From: Terriglobia bacterium
Lineage (GTDB): Bacteria; Acidobacteriota; Terriglobia; Terriglobales; Acidobacteriaceae
NCBI GenBank assembly: GCA_020073665.1
Contig: JAIQEU010000003.1
Span: forward strand, 186,001 to 250,000
Direction of reading: 5' to 3'
Length of the DNA: 64,000 bases
Shown: positions 46,613 through 63,600 of the stretch, one piece after another
How positions within the stretch are numbered: position 1 is the first letter of the stretch
Layout: each line of letters opens with the position of its first letter
Notes under the pieces: generated by a model
Databases searched by the model: none
Seen by the model: the letters and a program-made list of their open reading frames with translations, nothing else
What the model was told of the DNA's origin: nothing
Position numbers and translations under genes: made by a program

Positions 46613-46614
46613 TT

Positions 46615-47055
46615 TCAGGCTCCCGCGCCCGCGGCGTGCGCCACAGTGGCGTCCTCTCCCAGCACGTACTTGATGACTTCGTACAGCACTTCCGGCTTGA
46701 CCGGCTTTTGCACGAAGTGGCGCGCGCCCCGCTGCAATGCCGCCACGATGTTTTCCTGGTAGCCCACCGACGACACCATCACGATGCGTGCATCGGGGTG
46801 TTGCCGTACGATCTTCTCGGCTGCCTCGATGCCTTCCATCTGCGGCATCGTGATATCCATCAGCACGATGTCGGGAGTGGTGCGATCGTACTCGGTGATC
46901 GCGGTCATGCCGTCTCCGGCTTCACCCACCACCTGGCCGCCAAAGGTCTCGATCATGCGGGCCAGGTTCTTGCGGGCAAAGACGGAGTCGTCCACTACCA
47001 GGTAGCGGACCGGCTGACCGTCCTTAGTGCGTTTTATTGCCGCAAACTGCTCCAT
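46615..47055 (-). CDS. cheY: CheY-like response regulator
   Basis: This single receiver domain of 146 aa has an acidic pocket in VRYLVVDDSVFAR, the phosphorylatable Asp in PDIVLMDITMPQ, the T/S in RIVMVSS and Lys in HFVQKPVKP. It is the output of CheA here. The ATG at 47055 is preceded by GGAGGAGG seven bases away. The C-terminus has a short Ala/Gly tail. With no flagellar genes in the window, the output partner is unknown. Confidence 0.93.
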   Translation of the reverse strand: MEQFAAIKRTKDGQPVRYLVVDDSVFARKNLARMIETFGGQVVGEAGDGMTAITEYDRTTPDIVLMDITMPQMEGIEAAEKIVRQHPDARIVMVSSVGYQENIVAALQRGARHFVQKPVKPEVLYEVIKYVLGEDATVAHAAGAGA

Positions 47056-47099
47056 GTTGCAACCTCCTCCAACTGAATCCAAAACTTGCCTGCCCAGAA

Positions 47100-48203
47100 C
47101 TAGGTACGCCCGGCGCCCGCGGCCTTGCCGCCGTCACCGGGTCCTGCCGTCGCGCGGTCGGACATACATTGCGCCTGCAAGGTGTTGGCCAGCGCATCCA
47201 GGCCAACCACTCGTACTGCAAAACCCCGCTCAATGGCTGCCTTCGGCATGCCAAACACCACGCAGGAATCTTCGCTCTGCGCGATGGTCATGCCCCCGGC
47301 TGCCTTCACCGCGCCCATGCCCTGGGCTCCGTCCTCGCCCATTCCCGTCATGAGCACAGCCAGACTGTTGGCGCCGAACTCTTCGGCGGCAGTCTTGAAC
47401 AACACGTCCACCGAGGGACGGTGTCCGTTGACTCGCGGCTCATCCGTCAGGACCGCCACATCGCCCAAAGGCAGACGCTTTACCTTAATGTGCCGGCTGC
47501 CGGGACAGATCAAGGCCCGCCCGGCCAGCAATAAGTCTCCGGACTGAGCTTCCTTCACCGCGATGGCGCAAATCTCGTCCAGCCGCCGGGCAAACATCTC
47601 AGTAAATCCTTCCGGCATGTGCTGTACCACCACGATGGTTCCGGGAAAGTCCGCGGGCAATTGTGACAGCACAAACTGCAGCGCATGCGGTCCGCCGGTG
47701 GAGACTCCAATGGCCACGACGCGCGACGGCTGCTTTTTCGCATCTGTCGAAACCTTCTCGGCACGCCGCGAGACTCCCGGAATCGGCTGCACCTTGACGC
47801 CCCGGCTCTGGGCCGCGGCTTTGATCTTGGCAATCAGTTCGGAGGCGATTTCCGGCATGCGCGCGGACACGTCGTGCGGCTTGGCCACGAAGTCGAAAGC
47901 GCCCAAACCGAGTGCCTTCAGCGTTACCGACGCACCCTCGGTGCTGTGCGAACTGACCACGATGACCGGGACTCGCGAGCGCCGCATGATTTCCTTGAGC
48001 GTGTCGATGCCGTTCATGCCGGGCATTTCCAGGTCGAGTGTGACCACCTGCGGTCGCAGCTCTTCGATCTTGCGCAACCCAAAATTGCCGTCCATGGCGG
48101 TTCCCACCACCTGGATGGAACTGTCGGTCTGCAGGATCTGCGGGATCAGCTTGCGCATCAGGGCAGAATCGTCGACCACCAGCACCCGCACGGGAGCAGT
48201 CAT
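47100..48203 (-). CDS. cheB: CheB protein-glutamate methylesterase
   Basis: CheB removes methyl groups from the chemoreceptor for adaptation. The receiver domain (RVLVVDDSALMRKL, VTLDLEMPGMNG with the Asp) is joined to the methylesterase domain. Its catalytic residues are visible: Ser in GVSTGGPHAL, His in VVQHMPEGF and Asp in MTGMGEDGAQGM. The length is 367 aa. The start overlaps the cheA stop by four bases. The tail after about residue 350 (RATAGPGDGGKAAGAGRT) is disordered. Confidence 0.96.
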   Translation of the reverse strand: MTAPVRVLVVDDSALMRKLIPQILQTDSSIQVVGTAMDGNFGLRKIEELRPQVVTLDLEMPGMNGIDTLKEIMRRSRVPVIVVSSHSTEGASVTLKALGLGAFDFVAKPHDVSARMPEIASELIAKIKAAAQSRGVKVQPIPGVSRRAEKVSTDAKKQPSRVVAIGVSTGGPHALQFVLSQLPADFPGTIVVVQHMPEGFTEMFARRLDEICAIAVKEAQSGDLLLAGRALICPGSRHIKVKRLPLGDVAVLTDEPRVNGHRPSVDVLFKTAAEEFGANSLAVLMTGMGEDGAQGMGAVKAAGGMTIAQSEDSCVVFGMPKAAIERGFAVRVVGLDALANTLQAQCMSDRATAGPGDGGKAAGAGRT

Positions 48204-50356
48204 GGCTGCACCTCCGGCAGAGCGCCGCGAGCGCGATCGGCATTGGAAAGCAACATGCCGGAACTGACTGCGCCACTTTCGGCGGGGCGAGACCGGGCAA
48301 AACGTTCCACGATGGCCGCCAAGTTCAGGATCAGGACCACCCGCCCGTCTCCGAGGATGGAGGCACCGCTGACCAGGTCGGTCGCCACCGTCTGATCGTC
48401 GAGCGCTTTAATGACCAACTCTTCTTCGCCTTCCAACGCGTCGACAATGAGCCCGAGCTTGCGTTTTTCCGCGTGAATCACTAGCACAAAGAGTTTTCGG
48501 TTGCTGTGGTGCGCGTCTTCCGGCCGTCGCCCCAGCCGCACCAGCGGTACCACCTGGTTGCGCAACTGCAGGACTTCGTAGTTGTCCACCTGGTGAACCG
48601 CCGATTCCCGGGCGCGCGTGATCTCGGCCACGGCGTTCAAGGGCATGGCATACAGCCGCTGGTCCACGCGGAACAGCAGGGCCTTGATAATGGCCAGCGT
48701 CAGTGGCAGTTTCAGGCGGAAAGTAGTCCCCTGGCCGGGGTGAGTATCGATCGCGACCGTGCCTTTCAGCCGGTGCAACACGCTCTGCACCACGTCAAGG
48801 CCCACGCCGCGGCCGGAGATTTCGGTGATTTCCTCCGCCGTGCTGAACCCCGGCCGGAACACCAGCTCGAGGACCGCTGCCTCGCTCAGCCTGCCGGCTT
48901 CTTCTGCCGTAAGCAGGCCTTGCTGCTGGGCCTTGGCCTTCACCCTGGCGACATCGATGCCCTGCCCGTCGTCGCTGATTTCCACGATGACCTGGTTGCC
49001 ATGGTGGTACGCGTCCAGACGTATGGTGCCACGCGCTGGTTTGCCCAGCCGGGCGCGCTCTTCCGCACTTTCAATCCCGTGACTGATGGCGTTCCGCACC
49101 AGGTGGGTCAAAGGCTCGGCAATTGCGTCCAGGATGCTCTTATCGAGGTCGGTCTCGGCTCCGCTGACCACCAGGTCCACCTCTTTGCCGCACATCTTGG
49201 CGACGTCGCGGACCATGCGGGGAAACCGCCGGAACAGCTGCTCGACCGGCACCATGCGGATTTTCATGACCGAGCGTTGCAGATCGTTCAATACCCGCGC
49301 CTGAAACGCCATGGCATCGGCGAACCGGCCCCGCGTCGCGTCCTTGGGGAAATGGCGGCTGAACTCGTTCAGTGCCTGCTGCAACATGGACTTGCCAATG
49401 ATCAGCTCACCCACCAGGTTGAGCACGTTATCGATGCGCTCGGCTTCCACGCGCAGGATGTTTTCCGCCGCTGCCACGCCGGGGATCGCAGTAGTCTCGA
49501 GTGCAGGCGGAGAATCCACGACCCCGGTCTCGGGCGAGGCAGACGGGCTCGCGGGCTGCGCATCTTCTACCGGTACCGGGGTCGAAGCCGCGGCGCTCTT
49601 CCTGGTTCGCTGCGCCCGCTTCAACAATTCCACCTTGACGTCAGTGATCACCGTGGGAATCCGGCACTTCGCGGTGATCTGCTCTGCTGGCACATTGCTG
49701 GCCAGCACAAAGTCCAGCCGCTTGGCAGCCTGGGTTGAACCGGCCTCGGGCCGTGATGCCAGGACCTCGCCGATCGCGGCGATTGCATTCTGCACCAACT
49801 GGCGGGCGGCAATCGGCATGGCGCAATGGGGATCCACGACGGCCACGATGTGATAGACCCGTTTTCCCTGGCTGGCCGCTTTGCCGATGACCAGCTCTTC
49901 ATACTCGGTCCAGCGCACACGGGCGACACTCTCAGCAGGAGCTTTCCGCTTGCGGCTCTTCCCGCTGGCCGGGTTCTGCGCCAGTTCGCGGATGATTTTT
50001 CGCAGCGGCTCGCTGGATGGCGGTTTCACTTTGCGCCGGGCAGCCGCCAGCATAGCGGCAAAGGTATCAGCCGCCTTGAAAGCAACCTCCGCCAGAGAGA
50101 TTTCCGGGGAAACTGTCTCCAGGGCCAGCGCGTCCTCGAGTTCATGTGCCAGTTCGCTCAGTTCGCGGTAGCCGCAGGCAGCAGCGTCGCCCTTGAGGGT
50201 GTGCACGATCCGCCGGATGCTGCGGACGGTTTCGACGTCACCCGGCTGCTTCTCCAGCTTGAGCGCTTCCTCGTTCAAGGACTGCAGCAGTTCCTGCGCA
50301 GTCTCAAAGAAGAGCTCCCGCAGTTCCGCGCCGCGTTCATCGGAGGATTGGGTCAC
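48200..50356 (-). CDS. cheA: CheA chemotaxis histidine kinase
   Basis: CheA reads the receptor and phosphorylates CheY/CheB. Domains in order: HPt with His52 in RRIVHTLKGDAAACGY; a variable linker with a CheY-binding-like segment; the dimerisation helix pair (ENILRVEAERIDNVLNLVGELIIGKSML); the ATPase with HLVRNAISHGIE (N box), ISDDGQGID and GRGVGLDVV (G boxes); and a C-terminal CheW-like domain ending near IVERFARSRPA. The product is 718 aa. The start is GTG and overlaps the cheR stop by four bases. Confidence 0.96.
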   Translation of the reverse strand: MTQSSDERGAELRELFFETAQELLQSLNEEALKLEKQPGDVETVRSIRRIVHTLKGDAAACGYRELSELAHELEDALALETVSPEISLAEVAFKAADTFAAMLAAARRKVKPPSSEPLRKIIRELAQNPASGKSRKRKAPAESVARVRWTEYEELVIGKAASQGKRVYHIVAVVDPHCAMPIAARQLVQNAIAAIGEVLASRPEAGSTQAAKRLDFVLASNVPAEQITAKCRIPTVITDVKVELLKRAQRTRKSAAASTPVPVEDAQPASPSASPETGVVDSPPALETTAIPGVAAAENILRVEAERIDNVLNLVGELIIGKSMLQQALNEFSRHFPKDATRGRFADAMAFQARVLNDLQRSVMKIRMVPVEQLFRRFPRMVRDVAKMCGKEVDLVVSGAETDLDKSILDAIAEPLTHLVRNAISHGIESAEERARLGKPARGTIRLDAYHHGNQVIVEISDDGQGIDVARVKAKAQQQGLLTAEEAGRLSEAAVLELVFRPGFSTAEEITEISGRGVGLDVVQSVLHRLKGTVAIDTHPGQGTTFRLKLPLTLAIIKALLFRVDQRLYAMPLNAVAEITRARESAVHQVDNYEVLQLRNQVVPLVRLGRRPEDAHHSNRKLFVLVIHAEKRKLGLIVDALEGEEELVIKALDDQTVATDLVSGASILGDGRVVLILNLAAIVERFARSRPAESGAVSSGMLLSNADRARGALPEVQP

Positions 50357-51258
50357 ATCTGCACCTCGACGCGCTGGTAGGCAGTTCCGCTGTTGCGATG
50401 TACCATGGCGAACTTGTCAGTCAACCCCAGTAGGCTTTCGGCATGGCCGACGAACAGATAGCCTTCCGCGTTCAGGCAGCGGCTGAATTTCTCCACCAGC
50501 CGTTTCTGCTCGGCTTCGTCGAAATACATCATCACGTTGCGGCAAAAGATGATGTCGTTGCGTTGCGGCAGGTATTCCGTCTTGAGATTGTGAAAGTCAA
50601 AGTGGACGAACTCTTTGAGCGCTTTCTTGATGGCGTAGCGTTCGCCGACTTTGTCGAAGAAGCGCAGGCGGTAGCTGTAGTCCACGTTCGCCATCTGCGA
50701 CTCGGTGTAGATTCCTTCCTGCCCTGCCCGCAGCACGGAGTAGCTGATGTCGCTGGCCAGGATCTCCACCTTCCAGGGCGGCGGGACTACCGGCTTGGGG
50801 CTGGGCATCTCGAATGGTAAAGGGTTGCGCAGGTAGTAGTACGCCAGGCCGTCGGCCACCAGCATGGCCAGCGTGTACGCCTCCTGCCCGGTGGAACAGC
50901 CGGCACTCCAGATCCGCAGGCTGAAGTCGCGCCGTTCCTGCTTGCGGTGCAGCAGGTCGTCGAGGATGTACTTGTGAAACAGGTCCAGCTGGGCCTTGTT
51001 GCGAAAGAAGCTGGTTTCGTTGACGGTCAAGTTCTCCAGCAGCCGGGCCAACTCCTGCTTGCCGGCATCGCTGATCAGCAGGCGGTAATAGCTGTAGAAG
51101 GAATCCAGTTGGCATTCCTTCAACCGCCGCAGCAGCCGGTCCTGCAGGAAATGGGCGCGCCGCTCGTCAAAATGCATGCCGCATTCCTGGTAGACCAGGG
51201 CCTGCAAAAGCTTCAGCTCGGCTTCTGTGAACTGCGCCGCTACGCCGGTTGCGCTCAT
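50353..51258 (-). CDS. cheR: CheR chemoreceptor methyltransferase
   Basis: CheR methylates receptor glutamates using SAM. The N-terminal helical domain is followed by the SAM-binding motif LRIWSAGCSTGQEAYTLAML, the second acidic motif VEILASDISYSVLRAG and IIFCRNVMMYFDEAEQKRLVEKFSRCL. The product is 301 aa and the C-terminus GYLFVGHAESLLG is typical. A second cheR lies at 62683. The gene overlaps cheA by four bases. Confidence 0.95.
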   Translation of the reverse strand: MSATGVAAQFTEAELKLLQALVYQECGMHFDERRAHFLQDRLLRRLKECQLDSFYSYYRLLISDAGKQELARLLENLTVNETSFFRNKAQLDLFHKYILDDLLHRKQERRDFSLRIWSAGCSTGQEAYTLAMLVADGLAYYYLRNPLPFEMPSPKPVVPPPWKVEILASDISYSVLRAGQEGIYTESQMANVDYSYRLRFFDKVGERYAIKKALKEFVHFDFHNLKTEYLPQRNDIIFCRNVMMYFDEAEQKRLVEKFSRCLNAEGYLFVGHAESLLGLTDKFAMVHRNSGTAYQRVEVQM

Positions 51259-51287
51259 GAGTTCTCTTTCGTCCCGGTAATGTGGGG

Positions 51288-51800
51288 TTACTTGCCCGCG
51301 GCGGCGCTATGCGCTTCGGCCTGCCCGGCGCGGGTCCCCGCTTCTCCCGCAGTTCCTACTTCTTGTCGCAGCCCGCTGAATTCCAACAGCCGGGCCATGT
51401 CCAGCAGCACAATCAGCCTGCCGCCATACTTCGCCAGGCCGGTAACACAGTTCAGCCGGCCATCCTGAAAATCAATGGGAGGCGGCTCCACATCGGGAGC
51501 TGGAATCTTGAGCACTTCGGTGGCGGAATCGACGATCAATCCGTTAAGCCGCCCGCGATGCTCCACCACCAGAATCCTGGTCCGGCGGCTGGGGGCAACA
51601 CTGCGTTCGCCAAAGCGTTTCCGCAGATCAATCACCGACACAATTTTGCCCCGCAAGTTGATTACGCCCTCCATGTAATCGGGCGCATCCGGCACCGAAG
51701 TAATCTCGGGCACGCGCACGATCTCATGCAGGGAAGTGATGGGCACGCCGTAGGTTTCACGGCCCACCTGGAAGCCGACGATGTGGAGTTCGCGGTTCAT
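51288..51800 (-). CDS. cheW: CheW coupling protein
   Basis: CheW joins CheA to the receptor. The fold is seen from LHIVGFQVGRETYGVPITSLHEIVRVPEITSVPDAPDYMEGVINLRGKIVSVIDLRKRFG, then the second half RILVVEHRGRLNGLIVDSATEVLKI. A 25-residue Ala/Gly tail follows the normal end. The ATG at 51800 is chosen for the domain start; it lies 13 bases after the MCP stop. The product is 170 aa. Confidence 0.95.
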   Translation of the reverse strand: MNRELHIVGFQVGRETYGVPITSLHEIVRVPEITSVPDAPDYMEGVINLRGKIVSVIDLRKRFGERSVAPSRRTRILVVEHRGRLNGLIVDSATEVLKIPAPDVEPPPIDFQDGRLNCVTGLAKYGGRLIVLLDMARLLEFSGLRQEVGTAGEAGTRAGQAEAHSAAAGK

Positions 51801-51813
51801 GAGCGTCAGCGGG

Positions 51814-53796
51814 TCAGCCGCGGGCTCCCGCAGCGGCCCGCCGGACGCCGCGGTCCTCGTGGCGCGCGGCCATCCGCCCGGACTCCAGTTGCTCCAGGGC
51901 GAAGCGATCCATGGAGTCAAGCAAGTCGCGGGACATCTTCGACATCTGCTCCGCCGAGGCCGCCAGCTCGGTCGATCCCGAGGTGGTCTGCTGCACCAGT
52001 TCGCGCATGCGCTCCATAGCCTTTACCACCGCCTGCGCTCCCGAAGCCTGTTCTTCCACCGCGGAGTTGATCTCGTGGGTGATTTCGTTCAGCCGGGTGG
52101 TCGCGCGCGCGATCTGCGAGGAGCCATGCGACTGCTCGTTGGTGGCGGCGCCGATTTCCTGCGCGAATTTGTATACCTCCGTGACTACGTTGGAGATCTT
52201 GCGCAGGGCGCCGTTCAGTTCCTGGCCCAGGCCCAGGCCTTCGTTCACGATGCCGGTCGAGCGGTCCATGTTCTCGACCGCTTTACGCGCCTCTTTCTGG
52301 ATACTCTGGATCAGTTCGGAAATTTCCTTGGTTGACTGCGCCGATTTTTCCGCCAGCTTCCTGACTTCGTCGGCCACCACGGCGAACCCCAGGCCGTGTT
52401 CTCCGGCACGGGCGGCCTCGATGGCCGCATTCAGGGCCAGGAGGTTGGTTTGCTCGGCCAGGTCGTCAATGACCTCAATGATTTTGCCGATGTCATCGGC
52501 CCGCTGCCCTAGTACCCCGATGATTTCGCCGGAAGAGCGGATGGTGGTGTTGATGTTGTTCAGGCCGTCCGTGGCCTTTTCCATGGTGTTGATGCCGCTG
52601 TGGACTTCTTCCCGCGAGCGGTTGGAGATGTCGAGCAGCACCTTGGCGGTGTCGGCCACGCGCTGGATGGAAGCCACCATCTGATCGATGGAGGCGGAGG
52701 TTTCGCTGACGCTCGAAGCCTGCACCTGCGTGCTCTTCACCATGTTCTGCACGTTGACGCTCATCTCATGCATGGTGCTGGTGACTTCATCGATGGCCGA
52801 GGAAGTCTGCATGCTGATCTTGGCGGATTCGTCGGAGGCGCTGGCCACCTGGCTGGAGGCGCCGGCCACCTGGGAAGATGCGTCGCGCACGTTGCGCACC
52901 AGGTTTCGCAAGCCCTCGATCATGCGGGCGAAAGCGTTGCCCAGGGTATCGCTCTTCGACCGCGGTTGGACATCCACGGTCAGGTTGCCTCCGGCAATGG
53001 CCTCCGACACTGACGCCATTTCTTTCAGGTAGGTGACCATGTTGGTGAAGGTCCGGGCCAGTTCGCCAATCTCGTCCTTACGCCGGATGTCAATCTCATG
53101 TTCCAGGTCCCCGGCATCCCCGATCTGCCGGGCCACTTTCATCAGGCTATTCAGCGGCTCGGTGATGGACTTGGCGGTGGAGAAGGCGATGGCGCCGCCC
53201 AGGACAAGCGCCAGAAGCGTGCTGATCAGGGCGATCACGATGGTTGCTGTAGCCGCAGTCTCGTCGTACTTGCGCCGTTCCTCCAACACCTTGCGGTTTT
53301 CCTGGGCAGCCGTATCCAGGTATTCGGTTGCAGTCCTCACCCAGGAGGACGCGTCTTTCTGGAGATAAAAAATCTGCAACTCGGCGACGGTGGCGTTGCC
53401 GGCGTCAACTTCTTTCCGCTTTTCCGCCAGGGGAGCGGCGAAATCCCGGGCCCAATTCTGTTCGTTTTGTGCCAGTCTTTCCAACGCGGTCTTCTGCTGT
53501 TCGGAATTGGCCAGGCTCTCTACTCGTTGCAAGGCTTCGCTGAGCAGACGGACACCCTCGTTAACCCGGTCCACTTCGCGGGTATCGCCGCTGAGCAGGT
53601 AGTTGCTGAGGTAGAGCCGGTTCTGCATCATTTGGAACTTGACCGCGTCGGTGGCGTCGGCCAGTTCCAAAGCTTTGGACGCCGCGGCCTTGGCCCCGTG
53701 TTCGCGTTGCATGGCAAAGTAGTTCACCAGGAACAGCACCACGACCATCGCAAGGACGGCTCCGAAGTTCATGTAGAGTTTCTTGCCAATCGTCAT
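51814..53796 (-). CDS. Methyl-accepting chemotaxis protein
   Basis: This chemoreceptor of 660 aa has two membrane helices: the first about residues 8-30 ([20 protein letters not shown]), the second about 185-208 ([23 protein letters not shown]). The periplasmic part between them is helical, a four-helix-bundle sensor. A HAMP domain ([15 protein letters not shown]...) leads to a long coiled coil with the hairpin tip [21 protein letters not shown]. It is the only receptor in the operon. The C-terminus lacks a CheR-binding pentapeptide. The ligand is unknown. Confidence 0.95.
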
Positions 53797-54283: not shown

Positions 54284-54299
54284 TGCAATGCCGTTGCCA
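54284..54299 (-). promoter_or_regulatory. Near-consensus sigma-54 promoter of the che operon
   Basis: Read on the minus strand the 16-mer is TGGCAACGGCATTGCA. It has TGGCA and TTGCA blocks with GG and GC exactly 12 bases apart, as in the sigma-54 consensus TGGCACG-N4-TTGCW. Transcription would start near 54273, about 27 bases before the GTG of the TonB-like gene. The Shine-Dalgarno GGAGGAG lies in between. Confidence 0.82.
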
Positions 54300-54411: not shown

Positions 54412-54517
54412 GTCTCAGCAATGTCCCTCAATCTCAGTATGAGACCGTTCCAGTGTTGGACCTTGGGATTTCACAATTCGGCACCTAAGCCGTTATTTGC
54501 TTGACTCAAAATGAGAT
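54412..54517 (+). promoter_or_regulatory. TYTCA-N3-TGAGA palindromes between the che and kinase operons
   Basis: One full palindrome ATCTCA-GTA-TGAGAC is at 54431-54445, one ACTCA-AAA-TGAGAT at 54504-54517, and a half site GTCTCA at 54412-54417. Relative to the sigma-54 promoter they lie about 140-240 bases upstream, where an NtrC-type activator binds. The second palindrome also overlaps a TTGACT (54501-54506), a possible -35 of the kinase operon, so it might control that too. Confidence 0.65.
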
Positions 54518-54588: not shown

Positions 54589-57500
54589 ATGCAATCGGGA
54601 AATACGACTCTGCTCGAAGGGCCTGGCCCGCGCTCGGATGAGGCTTTCCAAAAACTCCTCCTGCAATTTTCAGCCGCCGCAGCGCGCGGAACCCAGAGCC
54701 CGGCCCTGATGCAACTGTTTTGTCGTGCCACCCGGGAGTTCTTCCAGGTTAGCGGAGCCTACTACTGGCAGTTGGCTTCCGCGGAGGAATTGGTAGGTAC
54801 CGAAGCTGACGGCCTGATGGCGGACCGTTTTCGCGGAGTCCGGCTCAAGACTACGCAAAGTGCGGTTGCGATCGAGGCGATCCGCAAGCGCCGGACCGTC
54901 TATGTGAACCGCTTGGACTGTTCTCGCTATCCACTGGCGGAAGAGTTTCATGCCAAGTCCATCATGGCCGCGCCCCTGGTGGTATCCAACGAAGCGATTG
55001 GGGCGGCGGTCTTTCTACACGAGTCCGAGCCGGAATTCTTCAACGATGACCTGGCAGCCAAGGCCACAATTCTGGCGGGGCAACTGGGCAGCCTGCTGGA
55101 AGCCGGTCGTCTGACCCTGGAGTCGAGGGAAGAACATCGCCGGGCCGAGATCCTGGCAGAAGTGGCCCAGGTCCTGCACGCGGTGCCCGATGATGCCGCG
55201 GTAGTCGAGGCGGTAGCCGACCGCCTGCGGGTGCTGCTGCGTACCCGGTTGGTCTGCATCCTGCTGCGGCAGGGCGGAGCTTTTGGCCTGCGGGCGGTGG
55301 CGGCGGAGACTCCGCAACTGGCGGCTTCAGTGCGTGCCCGCCATGACCGCAAGGGGCTTAACTTCACTGCCGATCTGGCGACTCGGGCCGTGGCCGCCGG
55401 AGAACCCATCACCGTGGCCATCGATCCGGCTACCCACGCCTTGGGCGACCTGATTCCCGCCGGGGTATTGATTGCGGCGCCCTTCCGTACTTCGCTTACC
55501 CAGGGTGCGGTGCTGGTCTATCCGCGACAGGACGGGGCTTTCAGCGCAGAGGAGAAGTCGCTAGTCGCGGCCATTGCCGGATTCGGCGCGGTTGCCATCG
55601 CCAATGCCGAACTCTGTGCCACCGCCCGCTCCCAGGCTCATGAACTGCACCAGTTGCTTGAGATCTCTTCTGACCTCGGTTCCATCGGCCACCTGGACGA
55701 GTTCATGCAGCAATTTTCCTTGCGCGCCGCCGATTTCCTGGGCTTCGGGCGTTCCTTCATTGGCCTGCTGAAGGAGGATAACGCCTTCCATGTGCGCTGG
55801 GGCTCGGACAAGGGCAGGACCGTGCTCGTGGACATGATCATCCCCAATGGCGCTGCCAGCGGCGTGCTGATGAGAAAGGAAGCGTTCTGGACCGACGATG
55901 CCGCCAGTGTTCCTGGGGCGAACCTCGAGATGGTCGGGGAATTCGGGGTGCGGCAACTGTTGGCGGTGCCGCTGCTCGGCAGCGATGGGCAAGTGCTAGG
56001 CATGTTCGGAGTACTCGATCGGTTGGATCTGGCGGGCATTTCGCAGGAAGACATCCGGCGCGCTCGCGTGCTGGCAGGGCAGGTTGCCATCGTCTTGGAA
56101 GTAACGCGCAATCTTCACTTGTCCAAGCAACATCGCCGCCGCGCCGAGTCTCTGGTGGAGCTGGCCCTGGAGCTGAACTCGCTGCTGCGCTTGCCCGACT
56201 TCGCGAAGGGCTTTGCTTCACGCGCCGCCGAGATGACCGGCGCCCGTGGAACGGCGCTGGCGGTGCAGCAGGGCGCCGCTCTGGAAATCCTGGTTCTCCA
56301 GGGGGCAGGTGGCGAAGCGGTACCCGAGCCTGCGCTGCTGCGCCGATTGGGTCAAGCGCTGACTGAGACCCTGACATTGCGTCCCGATCAGATCATTTCT
56401 TCCACTGCAGCCGAGTTGTTCGGGGCACCGCTGGCCTCGGCGCTCGGTTGGAGCGATTGCACCCTGGTACGGCTGGTGGCCCCGTCCGGAGAGTTGGTGG
56501 GAGTGCTCTGCCTCGCCGACCGCGGCAAGGCCCTGGAGCAGGAGGCGCGCCAGTTGCTGCAGGCGATCGCCGGGCATGCTTCGGTGGCCCTGGAGAATGC
56601 GCGGCTGTTTACCCGCATGGACCAGGCGAACCGCCACTGGATTGAGATCTTCGACGCCATTACGGATTTCATTGTGGTGCATGACGAGTCCGACAAGGTC
56701 TTGCGGGTGAATCGCTCCCTGGCTGACTTCATCGGAGTGCAGCCCCAGGAACTGATCGGCATCAACATGGGAGCACTGCTGGCCATGGGCGTCCACGCGC
56801 CGCTGCACTCCTGCCCATTCTGCCGAGCGACCAACGACCCCCAAGACGAGTACGCTCACTCGGTATTGGAACGCAGCTACCTGGTATCTACGTCGCGAGT
56901 CCATGGGGTCAACGGCGAAGGCCTGCAGACCATCCATGTGCTCAAGGACATGACCGACCGGAGGGAGGCGGAACGGCGCTACCGCGAGCTGTTCGACAAC
57001 ATCCAGGAAGGACTTTTCTTCTCCACCCAGGACGGCCGTTTCATCGAGGTCAACGATGCCATGGTCCGCATGCTGGGCTACGAAAGCCGGGAGGAACTGC
57101 TGCAGGCCGATGTGCCTACCCAGATCTACTTCTCGCCGGAACAGCGAATCCGCTCGGCCCAGCTCATGGAAGAGCGCGGCGTGTTGCGCAACCATGAAGA
57201 AACCCTGCGCAAGAAGGATGGCTCACCTATCCACGTGATGATCAATGCCTTCGCGGTGCGCGACACCCAGGGGCAGGTGCTGCAGTACCGCGGCCTCATG
57301 CTCGACATCAGCGGGCTCAAGGCCTTTCAAGCGGAATTGCAGCACGAGCGCGACTTCATCGGCAAGATATTGAGCAACACCCAGAGCCTGATTCTGGTAG
57401 CCGACACCGCTGGCCTGATCAGCTATGCCAACCGCCGCTGGTTCGACATGGGATATGACCAGAAGCAGCTTCTGGGCAAAGCCCTGGAGGAGCTGGTGGC

Positions 57501-58437
57501 GTCGGCCCGCCGCCCGGTGTTCAAGGACGCGTTGAGCGCAACCTTGTCAGGCCGCCAGGTGGACAACCTGGACGTCCAGATCTTGCGTGGAGATGGGCGC
57601 GTGGGCCAGTTCTCCGTCAACCTCAGCCCCATGCGCGATGAACAGGGCAACGTCACCAGCCTCGTCGTAGTCATGACGGACGTCACCGATGCGGCATCCC
57701 TGCAAGCCAAGCTGATGCAAGCGGAAAGGCTGGCGGCCGTCGGCCAACTGGTCTCTGGCGTGGCCCATGAGGTAAACAATCCGCTGACTGCCATTCTCGG
57801 GTTTGCGGATCTGCTGATGGAGAATACGGACGTGCCGGAGACGGCACGCAAGGACTTGCGGGTCATTCTGCAGGAAGCGCAAAGGACCAAGCAGATCGTG
57901 CAAAACCTGTTGAGCTTTGCCCGGCAGATGCCGCCGCAGCGCAAGCCGGTGCAGCTCAATGCCATCCTGCGGCGCACCGTCCAGTTGCGCGCCTACGACT
58001 TCCACAGCCATGGGGTGGAAGTGGTCGAGCAATTCGACCAGGAACTGCCCTACGTCATAGGCGATGCGCAGCAGTTGCAGCAGGTGTTCCTGAACATCAT
58101 CAACAATGCCTACGACGCGGTGCATGAAATCGCTCGTCCGGCACGCATCGAGATTATGACCACCCGCGCGGGTAACTTTGTCGAGGTGTCGTTTCGCGAT
58201 AATGGACAAGGGATTTCTCATCCCGACCGCATCTTCGATCCTTTTTTTACGACCAAGGAAGTGGGCAAGGGAACCGGCCTGGGCCTGAGTATTTGCTACG
58301 GCATAGTGCGAGAGCACGGGGGCGAGATCCATTGCCACAACAACCACGGTGCGGAGGGCGCCACCTTCCTGGTGCGTCTCCCGGCCGCTTCAGAGACGGC
58401 CTCGCTCGGGGCCGCTGCCGGAGCTATTCCGCGATGA
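54589..58437 (+). CDS. Soluble multi-GAF/multi-PAS hybrid-free histidine kinase
   Basis: This 1282-aa kinase has no membrane segment. By eye there are four GAF-type sensor domains (about residues 25-180, 190-345, 355-515, 525-680) and three PAS domains (about 685-800, 810-930, 940-1045). The DHp follows with phosphoacceptor His1060 in GVAHEVNNPLTAILGFADLL, then the ATPase with NIINNAYDAV (N box), FRDNGQGIS and GTGLGLSICYGIV (G boxes). The H-box HEVNNPL is of the NtrB class, matching an NtrC-type partner. The first PAS holds a CPFC pair. It overlaps the next gene by four bases (ATGA). Confidence 0.93.
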   Translation: MQSGNTTLLEGPGPRSDEAFQKLLLQFSAAAARGTQSPALMQLFCRATREFFQVSGAYYWQLASAEELVGTEADGLMADRFRGVRLKTTQSAVAIEAIRKRRTVYVNRLDCSRYPLAEEFHAKSIMAAPLVVSNEAIGAAVFLHESEPEFFNDDLAAKATILAGQLGSLLEAGRLTLESREEHRRAEILAEVAQVLHAVPDDAAVVEAVADRLRVLLRTRLVCILLRQGGAFGLRAVAAETPQLAASVRARHDRKGLNFTADLATRAVAAGEPITVAIDPATHALGDLIPAGVLIAAPFRTSLTQGAVLVYPRQDGAFSAEEKSLVAAIAGFGAVAIANAELCATARSQAHELHQLLEISSDLGSIGHLDEFMQQFSLRAADFLGFGRSFIGLLKEDNAFHVRWGSDKGRTVLVDMIIPNGAASGVLMRKEAFWTDDAASVPGANLEMVGEFGVRQLLAVPLLGSDGQVLGMFGVLDRLDLAGISQEDIRRARVLAGQVAIVLEVTRNLHLSKQHRRRAESLVELALELNSLLRLPDFAKGFASRAAEMTGARGTALAVQQGAALEILVLQGAGGEAVPEPALLRRLGQALTETLTLRPDQIISSTAAELFGAPLASALGWSDCTLVRLVAPSGELVGVLCLADRGKALEQEARQLLQAIAGHASVALENARLFTRMDQANRHWIEIFDAITDFIVVHDESDKVLRVNRSLADFIGVQPQELIGINMGALLAMGVHAPLHSCPFCRATNDPQDEYAHSVLERSYLVSTSRVHGVNGEGLQTIHVLKDMTDRREAERRYRELFDNIQEGLFFSTQDGRFIEVNDAMVRMLGYESREELLQADVPTQIYFSPEQRIRSAQLMEERGVLRNHEETLRKKDGSPIHVMINAFAVRDTQGQVLQYRGLMLDISGLKAFQAELQHERDFIGKILSNTQSLILVADTAGLISYANRRWFDMGYDQKQLLGKALEELVASARRPVFKDALSATLSGRQVDNLDVQILRGDGRVGQFSVNLSPMRDEQGNVTSLVVVMTDVTDAASLQAKLMQAERLAAVGQLVSGVAHEVNNPLTAILGFADLLMENTDVPETARKDLRVILQEAQRTKQIVQNLLSFARQMPPQRKPVQLNAILRRTVQLRAYDFHSHGVEVVEQFDQELPYVIGDAQQLQQVFLNIINNAYDAVHEIARPARIEIMTTRAGNFVEVSFRDNGQGISHPDRIFDPFFTTKEVGKGTGLGLSICYGIVREHGGEIHCHNNHGAEGATFLVRLPAASETASLGAAAGAIPR

Positions 58438-58835
58438 ACCAACCTGCTATCCAACCCGTCATTTTGCCGGTGCTGCTCATCGAAGATGAGGCCGGCGTGA
58501 TGGCTTATGTTCGTGCCACCCTGGAGCGCAGCGGCTACGCCGTGGTGTGCGCGCAATCCGGGGCCGAAGGTATACAACTGCTGGAAACTGGAGATTTTCT
58601 GGGGGTGGTATCCGACATGGTGACTCCCGGCGGCGTAAATGGCGCTGGGGTTCATGCCTGGATCGCCCGCAACCGCCCTGATCTGGCCTCGCGTATCGTT
58701 TTTATTACCGGCGACATTGCCAATGAAGAAACCGTGGCTACCCTGCGCCGCACCGGCGCTCCCTGCGTGGAGAAGCCGTTTCGGGTCCAGCAGTTCATTG
58801 ACGTCGTCGAGAAAACTATGGGGAAGGCCCCGTGA
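58434..58835 (+). CDS. Single-domain response regulator
   Basis: This receiver domain of 133 aa has the acidic pocket VLLIEDEAG, phosphoacceptor Asp61 in GVVSDMVTPGG, Thr in IVFITGD and Lys in CVEKPFRVQ. No output domain is present. It lies between the histidine kinase and the NtrC-type regulator with ATGA and GTGA overlaps, so the three are coupled. It may act as a phosphate sink or alternative output of the same kinase. Its T-loop (TPGGVNGAG) is longer than usual. Confidence 0.9.
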   Translation: MNQPAIQPVILPVLLIEDEAGVMAYVRATLERSGYAVVCAQSGAEGIQLLETGDFLGVVSDMVTPGGVNGAGVHAWIARNRPDLASRIVFITGDIANEETVATLRRTGAPCVEKPFRVQQFIDVVEKTMGKAP

Positions 58836-60241
58836 GCGAAGACCTACGCATCCGTCTGCTGATCGTTGATGATGAGGAGAGCATCCGCAAGCTCTGCATG
58901 ACCGTGGGGGAGGCGCTCGGCTTTGCCTGCCTGGAGGCCGATAGTGGCGAGTCCGCCCTGGCCCTGCTGGAAGAACAGCCCGCACAACTGATCCTTACCG
59001 ACATGGTGATGCCGGCCATGTCGGGCCTGGAATTTCTTGAGAAAGTGAAGAAAGCTTTTCCCCGCACCGAGGTTGCAGTAATGACCGGCCATGGCTCGGT
59101 CGAAACTGCGGTACAGGCCATGAAACTGGGCGCCTACGACTACATCAGCAAACCTTTTTCGCCGCTGGAAGAGTTGCGCTTGTTCCTGCGACGCATGGCG
59201 GAAAAAATCCGGCTGGTGGAAGAGAACCAGTTCTTGCGCGAACGCATGGATACAGAAACCGAACTCCATGGCATTGTGGGCGCGTCGGCCAAGATTCAAG
59301 ACGTGTTGCGCATGATTTCGCGCTTGAAAGATACCCGTACTCCAGTGCTGATTACCGGCGAGAGCGGGACCGGCAAAGAGCTGGTGGCGCGTGCCATACA
59401 CTTCCGCGGTACCTTCGCCAACCGTCCTTTCGTAGCCGTGGATTGCGGTTCGCTGGTCCCGACCCTCATCGAAAGCGAGTTGTTCGGCTACGAAAAAGGC
59501 GCCTTCACCGGCGCAGTGAAGTCCAAGACCGGACTGTTCCAGTCCGCGAACGGGGGCACGATTTTCCTGGATGAGATCGGCGAACTGCCGCTGGAACTGC
59601 AGGCCAAGCTGCTGCGTGTCCTGCAGGAAAAGGAAGTGCGGCCCGTGGGCAGCAATCAGAAAACCAAGGTCGATGTGCGGGTGATTGCCGCTTCCAACCG
59701 CGATCTCGAAGCCGAATACCGTAACGGCACCTTTCGCAAGGACCTGTTTTTCCGGTTGAATGTGGTCACCGTGCACCTTCCCGCCCTGCGGGAGCGCCGT
59801 TCCGACGTCCCCATGCTGGCGCACTGGTTCCTGGATCGCTATGCCAAGGACGATTCCATCCAGATCACCAGTGCAGCCATGAAATACCTGCTGCAGTATG
59901 ACTGGCCGGGAAACGTGCGAGAGTTGGAAAACTGCATCGAGCGGGCCGTGGCCTTGGGAGACCGCCGGGTCATCGATGTGAACGATCTTCCGCCGGCGAT
60001 CGCGTCGGCCTTGCAAGGACTGGAGGCGGGTCCCAGTCCGTTAGCCACAACGCTTTCTTCCACCGATCTGGAAGACATCGAGCGGGTAACCATCCAACGA
60101 GTTTTTGAACAGGTCAACGGCGACAAGGCGCTGGCCGGCAAGATGCTGGGCATCAGCCGTGCCACCCTGTACCGCAAGCTCAAGCGCTACAATATCGGCG
60201 GCGCCCACCTGGCGGCGCCGGGAAGCCAGGCGTTGCAGTAA
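58832..60241 (+). CDS. NtrC-family sigma-54 response regulator
   Basis: This 469-aa enhancer-binding protein has a receiver with Asp57 in [13 protein letters not shown]. The AAA+ domain has Walker A GESGTGKE, the sigma-54 contact loop GAFTGA, Walker [13 protein letters not shown] and the Arg finger region [17 protein letters not shown]. The Fis-type helix-turn-helix is at the C-terminus ([24 protein letters not shown]). The GTG start overlaps the previous stop. The sigma-54 promoters and palindromes flanking this operon on both sides are the obvious candidate targets. Confidence 0.96.
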
Positions 60242-60293: not shown

Positions 60294-60320
60294 TGAGACC
60301 CGTGTTTCAAAATGAGACAC
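60294..60320 (+). promoter_or_regulatory. TTTCA-N3-TGAGA palindrome upstream of the accessory cluster
   Basis: GTGTTTCA-AAA-TGAGACAC (60302-60320) is symmetric at 7 of 8 positions per arm. It has the same half-site and N3 spacing as the palindromes before the che operon. A further half site TGAGAC lies at 60294-60299. Its centre is about 130 bases before the predicted transcription start, the normal place for an NtrC-type enhancer site. Confidence 0.7.
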
Positions 60321-60412
60321 AGGTGCGAATCAAGCCTGATTCGCGACCCGGGTAGTTTCACTTAATACCGTTTAAAATCAACATATTACAGGTTAACCGT
60401 CTTGCCGCGACT

Positions 60413-60430
60413 TTGGCTGCGATCGTGCAG
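60413..60430 (+). promoter_or_regulatory. Candidate sigma-54 promoter of the accessory cluster
   Basis: TTTGGCTGCGATCGTGCAG (60412-60430) contains TGGC and GTGCA with GG (60415) and GC (60427) 12 bases apart. The match to the consensus is weaker than that of the che promoter. No other sigma-54 or sigma-70 promoter is obvious in the 282-base gap. Confidence 0.55.
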
Positions 60431-60523
60431 CTTCAGTAGGGCGACGCGGTCTGGGTGCCACGGTCATGCTAACCGGCAGGCCAGGGGACCCGGGCCGCGT
60501 TGAGCCTGAAACTGAGGTATCCC

Positions 60524-60874
60524 GTGTCCCAAGAGGCCACCGCCCGCGCCCGCGCTGCCGGCGACAGCTCTATCGCCAGGTTGGCCAGATATTTCCCCGA
60601 TGCGACTCCGGTCCGCATTCCGGTCAGCTTGATCCGGGTGGGGAGCACGAACAGTGGACTGAGCGAAAGCACGGTCATCGAGTTCGGCACCGCCCGCGAA
60701 GTACTGTTTGCCTCCAGCTTGCCGCTGGAATTCGCCGACGTGGTGCGAGTACAGAATTCCGATGGGACCCTGAACGCAGAAGCCTGCGTCGTGGCCCTGC
60801 AGTACAACCGCGGGCGTACCGCAGTGGCCGCCCGCTTTACCCAAGAAGTCTCCAACTGGATCGTGAAACCATGA
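60524..60874 (+). CDS. Small conserved protein, PilZ-like in pattern
   Basis: This 116-aa soluble protein has a beta-rich pattern: STVIEFGTAREVLFASSLPLEFADVVRVQNSDGTLNAEACVVALQYNRGRTAVAARF and NWIVKP at the end. The strand order resembles PilZ domains, but the RxxxR c-di-GMP motif is not seen, so any PilZ relation may be to a non-binding form. The GTG at 60524 is chosen because GAGGT stands five bases upstream. It overlaps the next gene (ATGA). It begins the cluster that follows the sigma-54 site. Confidence 0.65.
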   Translation: MSQEATARARAAGDSSIARLARYFPDATPVRIPVSLIRVGSTNSGLSESTVIEFGTAREVLFASSLPLEFADVVRVQNSDGTLNAEACVVALQYNRGRTAVAARFTQEVSNWIVKP

Positions 60875-61902
60875 CCGACACTCCACAATTGCATGAACTG
60901 GCCGAGGAATGGAGCGCGGCGCGGCTGCTGTATCCGCTGTATGCCGCGCTGGCTCGAGAGTTTGTCATTGATTTGCCGCCTTGCGCTGACTTGGAAGCCA
61001 ACGTCGAAGCTCCGCCGCAGGAATCGATTGAACTGGCCCGCCAGTGGTTCCTCGACATGGACGAGCGCATCCAGGTGCACCAGTTGCGTCAGTTTCTGCA
61101 GACCACCAGCCTGACCAGCGATGAAGGGTTGAAGGCATTGCTGGTTCATCATCTGCACAAGCCGAACCGTTCCAGCTCGGACCGCGACAAGATTGATTTC
61201 CTGCTGGTGCAGTTCTTCTCCCACTGTGCACCTTCACGCCTGGAGGATGCCGACGTCGACGTGGAGTACGTGGCCCAGGTGCTGGAACCGGTGCTGGGCT
61301 CGTTGGACGCGAGCACTCCGGAATGGCTGAAGCCGCTGGACGAGTTCGTGCAAGCCGCGAATGGTTGCCGCCATCTGAACGAGTTGTTCAGCGCCGGCAT
61401 TCTGGAGAAGGGCCGAAAGCTCAAGGCGAGCGCCGGCGAGAATTACTTCCAACCAGCCGCCATGGTGGCTTTCACCCGCTTCAGCTTCCTGATGCGGCGG
61501 GTGTTCTTCCGCCTGATGCATCAGGACCTGAATGCCATCCTGGATGGCCTGCGGGAACTGGAGTTGCGCGACGTGCATACCCTGGATTGCCGCCGGGCAC
61601 AGTTTTCCGCCGAGGAACCCACGGTGCGGTTGCGCATGATCTGCCAGTCGTGGAAGGTGATGTTTCATGCCGAATATTCCTCCGGTCAACCTCTCCGCAT
61701 GCTGGTGGACTTGCGCACCGTGATCGACGCGGCCCTGGCTCGCACCGCCAAGAGCGCCAGCGGTAAGGCGAAGGCCGCACCCGGGCCCTCCAAGGCAAAA
61801 GCCGCGGCAGCGGTAGCGCAGTTTGCTGCCAGCGCCGCCGATGTACCTGAGTTTGAGGTTAGCTCCGGTCATCCCGCGACGGATGACGAGGGCACCGTTT
61901 AA
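60871..61902 (+). CDS. Unrecognised helical protein of the chemosensory cluster, paralogue of the 26295 gene
   Basis: This 343-aa soluble protein has no recognised domain. Two conserved blocks, DRDKIDFLLVQFFSH (104-118) and HLNELFSAGILEKGRKLKASAGENYFQPAAMVAFTRFSFLMRRVFFRLMH (168-217), match the leftward 498-aa protein at 26-28 kb in sequence and order. The first 100 residues are charged helices and the last 60 are a Lys/Ala-rich disordered tail. It overlaps the preceding gene and is 35 bases from the next, so it is one operon with them. Its position suggests a scaffold or regulator in signalling; this is inference. Confidence 0.75.
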   Translation: MTDTPQLHELAEEWSAARLLYPLYAALAREFVIDLPPCADLEANVEAPPQESIELARQWFLDMDERIQVHQLRQFLQTTSLTSDEGLKALLVHHLHKPNRSSSDRDKIDFLLVQFFSHCAPSRLEDADVDVEYVAQVLEPVLGSLDASTPEWLKPLDEFVQAANGCRHLNELFSAGILEKGRKLKASAGENYFQPAAMVAFTRFSFLMRRVFFRLMHQDLNAILDGLRELELRDVHTLDCRRAQFSAEEPTVRLRMICQSWKVMFHAEYSSGQPLRMLVDLRTVIDAALARTAKSASGKAKAAPGPSKAKAAAAVAQFAASAADVPEFEVSSGHPATDDEGTV

Positions 61903-61937
61903 GCATTGCGGAGCGTCCGCAAAGAAGGGGGAAGAAC

Positions 61938-62615
61938 TTGGACCAGCCGACTGTATTGCTCGTCTCCGACGACGCCGAGTTCGCGCGCGCCATTGCAGGC
62001 CGCTGGCAGAGTGAGCGCCACCCGCCGGCTTTCACCCTGATGGGGGGAGACCTCTGCCGGGACCTTCATGCGGAAGACTTCGATGTGGCCATCGTGGGCG
62101 CGGTGCAGCCCCCCTTGCTGCCCGCAGTTCTCCAGGCTCTCGAAGCCACGAACTGCCCGGTAGTGTTCGCCGGCGAGGATATCCGGCAGGCGCAGGCGAT
62201 GCGGGAGACCCTGCCGCGAATCATGGTTCTGGTGCAGCGCGAAGGCTGGCTGGATGTCCTGGTGCTGTTGGTCTCGGAAGCATTGCGGCGCTGCGAGGCG
62301 ATGGCCCGTGCCCGGGCCCTGGAGCAGGCCAATGCGCTGCTGGAGCGCCAGGCGGCCCTGGGTCGCTACATCCTGGAGATGCGGCACACCCTGAACAACG
62401 CCCTGACCTCCATCCTGGGCAACGCCGAGCTGTTGCTGCTCGAGCCGCTGGCCTTGGGATCACGGGCGCAGCTTGAAACCGTACGCAACATGGCAGTGCG
62501 GATGCACGAAATCCTACAGCGCTTTTCGTCGATCGACAAAGAGCTGAGTGTGCTGGAAAAACATCCGGACGCGGCAGGCACCACCAAGTCTCAAGCCGCG
62601 GCAGCCAGCTTCTAG
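61938..62615 (+). CDS. Degenerate receiver fused to a DHp domain without ATPase
   Basis: This 225-aa protein starts with a receiver-like fold (VLLVSDDAEFARAIAGRW) in which the position of the phosphoacceptor holds Gly54 (FDVAIVGAVQ) instead of Asp. A long helix (about 110-140) leads to a DHp-like pair with His150 in LEMRHTLNNALTSILGNAELLL, which is a clear H-box. The protein then ends; no N or G boxes follow. It could receive phosphate from another kinase or bind one as a dimerisation partner. The TTG start has GGGGGAAG seven bases upstream. Confidence 0.78.
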   Translation: MDQPTVLLVSDDAEFARAIAGRWQSERHPPAFTLMGGDLCRDLHAEDFDVAIVGAVQPPLLPAVLQALEATNCPVVFAGEDIRQAQAMRETLPRIMVLVQREGWLDVLVLLVSEALRRCEAMARARALEQANALLERQAALGRYILEMRHTLNNALTSILGNAELLLLEPLALGSRAQLETVRNMAVRMHEILQRFSSIDKELSVLEKHPDAAGTTKSQAAAASF

Positions 62616-62682
62616 CGGCTGCGAAGAATTTGAGCCCTCCCCTGGACGAGCCAACGTGTGCAAGTAGAGGAGTTGTCGGTCA

Positions 62683-63600
62683 GTGGACGCGAACCATTCG
62701 AAGTGCTTGGATGGTGAGCGGCCGCTGGGCGGTGCGGTTTTGCCAATGAATACGCTCTCCACCAGCGTCCTGGAGCACGAACTGTCCGAACTCCGCCTTA
62801 TCCTGGAGCGGCAAGCCGGGGTCTTGCTGGATACTCCCGCGGAAATACTCAGCGACGTCCTGCGGAAGTATCTGCTGAGCAAGCACCAGGGCAGTGTCCA
62901 GGACATGCTTAGCCTGTTGCGTTCGTCGGACGCGGAGTGTGAACGTCTGCTGGAACCGCTGCTCGATCCCCAAACCGGTTTTTTCCGCTATCCCCAGGCG
63001 TTCGAAGCGCTGGCCACCCTGGTTCTGCCTGACCTCCAGACTCGCAAGCTGGCCGAGAACCCCCACAGCCTGCGCGTCTGGAGTGCTGGTTGCTCGAGTG
63101 GCGAGGAGGCTTATTCGATTGCCATGTCGGTGTGCGATGCCTTGAACTGCAATGGCGGCGGCTGGAACGTCCGCATCATCGGCAGCGACATTCGCCGTCC
63201 GGCGCTCGAAGTTGCCCAACGCGGCCTTTATCCAGAAAGCGGGTTGCAACAAGTTTCCCGCCAGCGCGTCCAGACCTACTTTGTGCGAGTTGGCCAGCAC
63301 CTTTTGGTGAAGCCTCGGGTGCGAAACCTGGTCACGTTTACACCCATGAATCTGGCCAAGCCTGATTACCTAGGCCGCTTCGACTGCATTTTCTGCATGG
63401 ACGTGCTACCCCATTTCTCCATGTCCCAGAGAGTTGCGCTGACGCAGCGCCTGCACCTGTACCTGGAGCCGGGCGGATATCTGTTCCTGGGTCAGAACGA
63501 GAAGTTGCCTGCGGTAGACGTGGCTTTCCGCCCTCACAAAACTGGAAGTTACACGCTGTACCAGAAGCCCATGGCCGCGGCGGCCGGGCAGGGCCGCTGA
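62683..63600 (+). CDS. cheR: Second CheR methyltransferase
   Basis: This CheR of 305 aa has the SAM motif LRVWSAGCSSGEEAYSIAMSV, acid motif VRIIGSDIRRPALEVAQRGLY and FDCIFCMDVLPHFSMSQRVALTQRL. The usual CRNVL motif is altered to CMDVL. The N-terminal helical domain (ELSELRLILERQAGVLLD) is present. The start is GTG at 62683 with GAGGAG about 12 bases upstream; an internal ATG at 62746 would remove a non-conserved 21 residues and is also plausible. No receptor gene lies next to it, so its target may be the MCP at 51.8 kb or another protein. Confidence 0.9.
   Translation: MDANHSKCLDGERPLGGAVLPMNTLSTSVLEHELSELRLILERQAGVLLDTPAEILSDVLRKYLLSKHQGSVQDMLSLLRSSDAECERLLEPLLDPQTGFFRYPQAFEALATLVLPDLQTRKLAENPHSLRVWSAGCSSGEEAYSIAMSVCDALNCNGGGWNVRIIGSDIRRPALEVAQRGLYPESGLQQVSRQRVQTYFVRVGQHLLVKPRVRNLVTFTPMNLAKPDYLGRFDCIFCMDVLPHFSMSQRVALTQRLHLYLEPGGYLFLGQNEKLPAVDVAFRPHKTGSYTLYQKPMAAAAGQGR

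Follow-up and report, generated by a model that had tools for sequence, protein, structure and literature searches.

Four genes (g1 to g4) lie head to tail behind a gene for an NtrC-type sigma-54 activator in the genome of a Terriglobia bacterium (Acidobacteriaceae; assembly GCA_020073665.1, contig JAIQEU010000003.1, positions 186,001 to 250,000 of the forward strand; this whole stretch of 64,000 nucleotides is hereinafter referred to as the window). Are they one accessory module for the chemosensory (che) array encoded divergently in the same window, as a first-pass annotation had proposed? Comparison with relatives showed that three of them, g1-g2-g3, are a module, and that g4, which encodes a CheR-type methyltransferase, is a re-used relic of a second array.

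The open reading frames (ORFs) of g1 to g4 were confirmed on the plus strand, with the positions, overlap and gaps that the first-pass annotation had given (35 bases between g2 and g3 and 67 bases between g3 and g4; Table 1). No paper on this locus was found in the literature searched, which misses most subscription journals.

Conservation of g1, g2 and g3

Co-occurrence was assessed in 150 genomes of the window's family. g1 was found in 58 of them, g3 in 74, and g2 in 67. For g2, a further 6 genomes (73 in all) were left out because their best match did not reach 1e-20 and was taken as a distant paralog; some of the 67 carry g2-like genes away from g3. g1 and g3 occurred together in 55 genomes (P values for co-occurrence ignore relatedness), on one contig within 6 kb in 50 and on different contigs in 5, an association that chance does not explain. 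All three genes were present in 52, and three genomes had no g2 between g1 and g3.

Gene order was read in 80 named loci, the best 80 of 165, in which close relatives are over-represented and many contigs are the same as in the unnamed set. The named relatives came from soil and peat and belonged to Terriglobales and other groups of Acidobacteriota, and g3 was also found on named contigs of Acidoferrales-type metagenome-assembled genomes. Both g1 and g2 were located upstream of g3 in 65 of the 69 named relatives having more than 2.5 kb there. In a sample of 396 genomes drawn from the phylum, the g3 profile gave matches at E < 1e-80 in 5, and these 5 belong to the window's family. None of the remaining listed matches was better than 2e-17, and most of their frames had the length of a kinase. 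The conserved unit is g1-g2-g3, three genes. One record titled Betaproteobacteria (L227) carries an acidobacterial locus and is probably a mislabelled bin.

Second chemosensory array and descent of g4

In many relatives, g3 was followed by genes for a receiver (REC), CheW, a methyl-accepting chemotaxis protein (MCP), CheR, a CheA with Hpt and REC domains, CheB, and a second CheW. The complete order in one such locus (L081) was g1-g2-g3-REC-CheW-MCP-CheR-CheA (2 Hpt, REC)-CheB-CheW. Among the 80 named loci, CheR alone followed g3 in 45, the second array in 16, an MCP alone in 1, and none of these in 16, while 2 loci were cut off. The first-pass annotation had expected the four genes to be kept together in relatives, which held for g1 to g3 but not for g4. 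One inseparable module of g1 to g4 was ruled out, as g4 comes and goes among g3 loci. An MCP of the second-array type was seen as the sole remnant after g3 in L140, L146, L148, and L219.

A tree was built from 45 CheRs, leaving out 24 of the 30 rows of CheR1, the CheR of the first array. The clade holding 24 array-linked CheRs was separated from CheR1 at 100/100, and within this array-linked clade a branch (96/99) set 15 orphan CheRs apart. On sequence comparison, g4 descends from the CheR of a second array since lost: wherever the locus is complete, its ortholog belongs to that array, so that its origin lies in another system. The loss of the array with CheR kept looks like one event. A complete array beside g4 is absent from the window genome and was seen only in relatives. 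Relocation of the second array elsewhere in the genome (62 contigs, completeness 100) was ruled out: the genome has only two CheR genes, both inside the window, two CheW-domain genes (the single CheW and the single CheA of the window array), and two MCPs. The second MCP (contig C4, L102:8116-10242) combines a Cache sensor with a zinc-binding CZB domain, and no CheW or CheR adjoined it in the stretch read.

Altered pocket residues of g4

The assignment of g4 as a methyltransferase was borne out by a Pfam match to CheR at 162 bits. Residues of the S-adenosylmethionine (SAM) pocket were counted by alignment over 114 distinct rows, including 48 orphan rows, of which 2 were cut, leaving 46 readable. 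The Asn position of the motif CxNVxxYF was Asp in all 46 readable orphans, compared with Asn in 34 of 36 array-linked CheRs and 30 of 30 CheR1 rows. The Tyr was kept in 2/46 orphans, 35/36 array-linked rows, and 30/30 CheR1 rows, and 39 of the 46 orphans had His there. The Asp aligned with D144 of Pseudomonas aeruginosa CheR1 was kept in all 114 rows (48/48 orphans), and Y222 of that protein aligned with His244 of g4 in alignments made with 5xly and 1af7. SAM binding by P. aeruginosa CheR1 is reportedly lost on the double change D144A-Y222A, in which the two residues are not told apart (PMC6370697). The receptor-side FFR was mostly kept. Longer orphan CheRs (367–387 aa), extended through an insertion, were seen in L065, L067, L069, and L071.

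Median pairwise dN/dS was 0.118 for orphan CheRs (102 pairs) and 0.057 for array CheRs (23 pairs), values that place orphan CheR under purifying selection, less tightly than before. Because the pocket changes are fixed and dN/dS indicates constraint, g4 reads as a case of changed function rather than decay. A point against this reading is the array-linked CheR of L143, which also has Asp with most of its array present; the other array-linked row lacking Asn, L137, belongs to a badly diverged array.

g3, a histidine kinase fragment without ATPase

The first-pass description of g3 as a kinase fragment without ATPase agreed with the Pfam results, which gave HisKA at 28.1 bits (cut-off 26.9) and no HATPase. 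HisKA was matched by 47 of 47 g3 relatives, none of which had an ATPase domain. Among 101 distinct g3 proteins, the phospho-acceptor His was present in 92 and replaced in 9. The following residue (H+1) was acidic in none of the 101, being Ser, Gly, Asn, Thr, Ala, or Arg, and H+4 was Asn in 96 of the 100 having a letter there. The kinase encoded in the same cluster, by contrast, showed HEVNN in 39/39 cases where the pattern was found. For CrdS and three other HisKA kinases, it is reported that the acidic H+1 is needed for kinase activity only, and the Thr/Asn at H+4 for phosphatase activity only (PMC3510030). Because there is no acidic H+1, the Asn at H+4 is kept and an ATPase domain is missing, g3 is best read as kinase-dead, that is, probably unable to autophosphorylate, which leaves phosphatase or phosphotransfer activity. 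Phosphatase activity is slightly preferred, since the Asn at H+4 is kept where the His is replaced by Pro.

Several findings weigh against parts of this reading. H+4 was Asp in 4 of 100 g3 proteins, and an Asn-to-Asp change at this position removed phosphatase activity in CrdS (PMC3510030), which speaks against a universal phosphatase. In six g3 proteins (L217, L218, L221, L222, L223, and L224), all from loci with the second array, the His was Pro with the rest of the motif intact, which argues against phosphotransfer in those loci. Support for a receiver-like N-terminus in g3 came only from hhalign (27% probability, E 6.6e-4) and from a match to a de novo designed protein with E 1.2e-4. Where a receiver carries its phospho-Asp, g3 had Gly in 93/101 and Asp in 3/101. 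The median pairwise dN/dS of g3 was 0.083 (192 pairs).

Predicted structures of g1 and g2

The first-pass annotation had called g1 PilZ-like, which stood by predicted structure but not by sequence profile. Pfam gave nothing usable for the window protein, the 10 families listed for the 44 relatives of g1 did not include PilZ, and g1 was not among the 37 PilZ matches of the genome. An hhalign comparison with only 8 PilZ domains of the same genome gave a probability of 5% and was uninformative. The AlphaFold2 model of g1 (pLDDT, the predicted local distance difference test, 80.2) had PilZ domains as its top Foldseek matches (best E 9.9e-4). In VIA, it matched VCA0042 with Z 11.2 and a root mean square deviation of 2.0 over 87 residues, and MapZ in the 5xly complex was also among the fold matches (Z 9.1). 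g1 is thus, according to the model, a PilZ beta-barrel visible by predicted structure and not by sequence. The [DN]xSxxG motif was found in 0/44 g1 proteins. RxxxR within residues 11–45 was found in 20 of 44 g1 relatives, as RIPVR in the predicted first strand, and the window protein had no RxxxR.

The g2 protein of the window had no family match. Its AlphaFold2 model (pLDDT 86.9, 257 residues at 90 or above) was all-helical with a disordered tail. Foldseek gave no match at E 0.001 (best E 0.6), and the best VIA match (Z 6.0 over 69 residues) indicated no close solved fold, which does not amount to a new fold. Searches of solved structures with the single g2 and g3 sequences gave nothing useful and profiles gave weak matches only, and a plasmid search with g2 found nothing. 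A distant g2 paralog of 498 aa is encoded at 26295-27791 on the minus strand of the window (26% identity over part), and it appears as a weak second match in many family genomes.

Conserved promoter elements before g1 and the che operon

Alignment of g1 upstream regions revealed a TGAGAC-type palindrome, followed 75–95 bases on by a -24/-12 element (spacer 93 in the window). Of 97 distinct g1 upstream regions, 88 had the palindrome (1 mismatch allowed; 0.26% of shuffles) and 74 the promoter element (up to 2 mismatches allowed; 3.0% of shuffles). Both elements were present in all 14 array-bearing regions of the 97-region set. On the other side of the kinase and NtrC genes, TGGCAYN5TTGCA (at most 1 mismatch), close to the textbook form of a sigma-54 element, faced the che operon in 15 of 23 divergent regions vs 1.0% of shuffles, and YTCTCANNNTGAGAC (at most 1 mismatch) was found in 14 of 23 che-facing regions and in no shuffles. 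Sigma-54-like promoters and palindromes, as recognized from sequence alignment, are conserved before g1 and before the che operon. With similar elements facing g1 on one side and the che operon on the other, both units are probably driven by the NtrC whose gene lies between them.

The strength of this evidence is reduced in several respects. The consensus was drawn from 16 of the sequences later counted, and the relatives are not independent, so that the numbers overstate the conservation. The promoter match of the window alone was near chance (0.51 expected), and its palindrome counts were reached in 12 and in 4 shuffles out of 100. When the genome was searched for exact copies of the palindrome, 1 site was found, the same number as in the reversed control. 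Where NtrC was not encoded within 4.5 kb, both elements were rarer (palindrome 9/13, promoter 4/13) than where NtrC was near (25/25 and 18/25).

The conserved leader TGCTAACCGGCAG between the sigma-54-like promoter and g1 matched no Rfam family at threshold, with one chance match under threshold. A sigma-70 promoter scan found none. One terminator-like site was detected, on the minus strand inside g3; such sites were fewer than in shuffles.

Features of the locus

The coordinates of the features are listed in Table 1. CheX and CheY of the che array were named from their sequences without a family match. No match to FliG was found in the window's genome, so a flagellar role is unlikely. The annotated GTG start (54303) of a TonB-like ORF overlaps the che-facing sigma-54-like element, and the true start of this gene is therefore probably further in.

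Table 1. Genes and control elements of the locus (positions in the window).
Feature	Position	Strand	Remarks
che array	46112..53796	-	CheX, CheY, CheB, CheA, CheR1, CheW, MCP, read inward from the plus side
Sigma-54-like promoter TGGCAACGGCATTGCA facing che operon	54284..54299	-	conserved in divergent regions
TGAGAC/GTCTCA half sites, che operon-kinase interval	54412..54445	.	YTCTCANNNTGAGAC
Further palindrome GACTCAAAATGAGAT before kinase gene	54503..54517	.	conserved alignment block
GAF/PAS histidine kinase	54589..58437	+	HisKA and HATPase matches
Single-domain response regulator	58434..58835	+	Response_reg match; ATG start 58434 inferred from ORF
NtrC-type sigma-54 activator	58832..60241	+	receiver, AAA+, Fis-type helix-turn-helix by family match
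Three TGAGAC-type half sites TGAGACCCGTGTTTCAAAATGAGAC, proposed NtrC binding site of g1 operon	60294..60318	+	alignment of 16 loci
Sigma-54-like -24/-12 promoter TTTGGC-N6-CGTGCA before g1	60412..60429	+	conserved in upstream regions
Leader block TGCTAACCGGCAG between sigma-54-like promoter and g1	60467..60479	+	conserved; alignment of 16 loci
g1	60524..60874	+	GTG start, 116 aa, predicted PilZ fold, without [DN]xSxxG
g2	60871..61902	+	343 aa, all-helical model, Ala/Lys-rich disordered tail; overlaps g1 by 4 bases
g3	61938..62615	+	TTG start; pseudo-receiver-like N-terminus and HisKA/DHp without ATPase; His150 codon at 62385
g4	62683..63600	+	GTG start, 305 aa, orphan CheR of second-array lineage
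g4 motif CMDVLPHF	63394..63417	+	SAM-pocket region; array-linked CheRs mostly CMNVLIYF

Discussion

As to the question raised at the outset, an add-on to the che regulon is plausible because g1 and the che operon carry the same kind of promoter and palindrome, but the four genes are not one module. From gene content, synteny, the descent of g4, residue patterns and conserved promoter elements, we infer the following model of joint transcription, NtrC binding, biochemical activities and protein contacts. The ancestral operon would have consisted of g1-g2-g3 and a second chemosensory array in Pil-Chp-like order. In the window lineage, the array would have been lost and only CheR (g4) kept, with its SAM pocket changed and fixed. 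At present, g1 to g4 would form one operon switched on by NtrC and sigma-54, with the divergent che array in the same regulon. A signal perceived by the GAF/PAS kinase would lead to phosphorylation of the response regulator and NtrC, and NtrC with sigma-54 would then turn on the che operon and g1-g4. g3 may act back by removing or passing phosphate among the receivers of the cluster (the single-domain response regulator, NtrC or CheY), via its conserved Asn at H+4 and, in most relatives, its His, and may thereby set NtrC activity. g1, with a PilZ fold and without the usual cyclic di-GMP (c-di-GMP) motif, would act through contact with other proteins; g4 may be its target, in the way that CheR1 is the target of MapZ in Pseudomonas. 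g4 would be a partner that depends on SAM or senses it, with a methylation activity that is reduced or altered. That g1 and g4 act together is speculative, by analogy with MapZ, and it is weakened by the finding that MapZ acts only with bound c-di-GMP (PMC6370697), as part of that motif is missing in g1. Taken as a whole, a shared NtrC/sigma-54 regulon with a relic CheR and g3 acting on receivers is the explanation we find somewhat more convincing than its negation.

The gene order of Pil-Chp is pilG/H-I-J-K-chpA-B-C. The second array of relatives resembles this system of Pseudomonas type IV pili in having REC, CheW, MCP, CheR, a multi-Hpt CheA with REC, CheB, and CheW in one operon. It differs from Pil-Chp in that it is preceded by g1-g2-g3, its CheA has 2 Hpt domains by Pfam, and its MCP is short (478 aa, with HAMP), while the window retains only the CheR. 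The roles of PilG/H, PilI, PilJ, PilK, ChpA, ChpB, and ChpC have been outlined (PMC12632253). Compared with CheR chemoreceptor methyltransferases in general, g4 shares the fold, the SAM-site Asp and, mostly, FFR, but it differs by Asn to Asp and Tyr to His in CxNVxxYF and has no array of its own. The pair of a small PilZ-fold protein and a CheR in one locus recalls MapZ-CheR1, in which a PilZ protein inhibits a CheR; unlike MapZ, g1 is without [DN]xSxxG and is present also where no second CheR exists. g3 is like PhyT/PhyP, ChpT, and Spo0B in having a DHp His without an acidic neighbour (HRxxN in PhyT) and probably no autokinase activity. Unlike them, it has no ATPase remnant, its receiver-like N-terminus is without the phospho-Asp, and the His is missing in 9/101.

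Alternatively, g3 could be the phosphotransferase of a four-step relay from the kinase through the single-domain response regulator and g3 to NtrC, like Spo0F-Spo0B-Spo0A or SdrG-PhyT-PhyR. Kinase, single-domain response regulator, NtrC and g3 are indeed encoded in one cluster, and 92/101 g3 proteins retain the His. In addition, it is reported that PhyT, with a non-acidic HRxxN and a degenerate ATPase domain, moves phosphate from SdrG to PhyR (PMC5898713), and that ChpT likewise is without autokinase activity (PMC3433190). A relay is nevertheless doubtful, though a real possibility, given the replacement of His in nine g3 proteins, by Pro in six with an otherwise intact motif, and given that, of 53 named loci with more than 6 kb upstream, only 35 had an NtrC gene within 4.5 kb on that side; further, when the ordinary kinases of the genome were ranked by their match to the g3 profile, the cluster kinase came second. 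An operon unrelated to the che array, with neighbourhood and similar promoters incidental, would fit the near-chance promoter matches in the single genome and one g1-g3 unit (L049) whose 15 kb of upstream sequence matched neither che genes nor NtrC. It is improbable in view of the paired conserved elements on both sides of the kinase-NtrC genes and of a neighbourhood kept in many genera.

For g4, a role as an ordinary methyltransferase, acting on the MCP of the window or on the Cache-CZB one of contig C4, has in its favor a CheR score far above the cut-off, the SAM-site Asp in every orphan row, purifying selection, and the presence of two MCPs in the genome. This is rather unlikely, since the pocket Tyr is changed in 44/46 and Asn is replaced by Asp in 46/46 readable orphans, the first array already has CheR1, and 16/80 named g3 loci have neither CheR nor array after g3. 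At the other extreme, g4 may be debris left by the lost array and in the course of decay: no other array gene survives in the window lineage, orphan branches are longer with dN/dS higher than for array CheRs, and CheR was lost outright in some relatives. A dN/dS of 0.118 and a new motif, CMDVLP, unchanged in most orphan rows nevertheless indicate constraint, and debris is to be regarded as very improbable. A bolder reading is that the relic CheR has turned into a non-canonical SAM-binding partner in the three-gene module, composed of a PilZ fold no longer reading c-di-GMP, a helical protein, and a kinase-dead DHp protein with a pseudo-receiver, which tunes an NtrC/sigma-54 regulon that includes the remaining array. 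This proposal is offered tentatively and is unlikely to hold in full; if true, the module would be an undescribed kind of adaptor from chemosensing to transcription.

The locus provides a case, dated by phylogeny, in which an array was dismantled and one enzyme was kept and changed at fixed pocket residues. It also points to a conserved, probably kinase-dead DHp protein that sits, in soil bacteria that are abundant and for the most part uncultured, between chemosensory genes and a sigma-54 two-component system. For g3 and the orphan CheR alike, the biochemical predictions are clear, which makes the re-use of array parts testable. The locus could show how the parts of a sensory machine are put to new use in bacteria once it has been dismantled.

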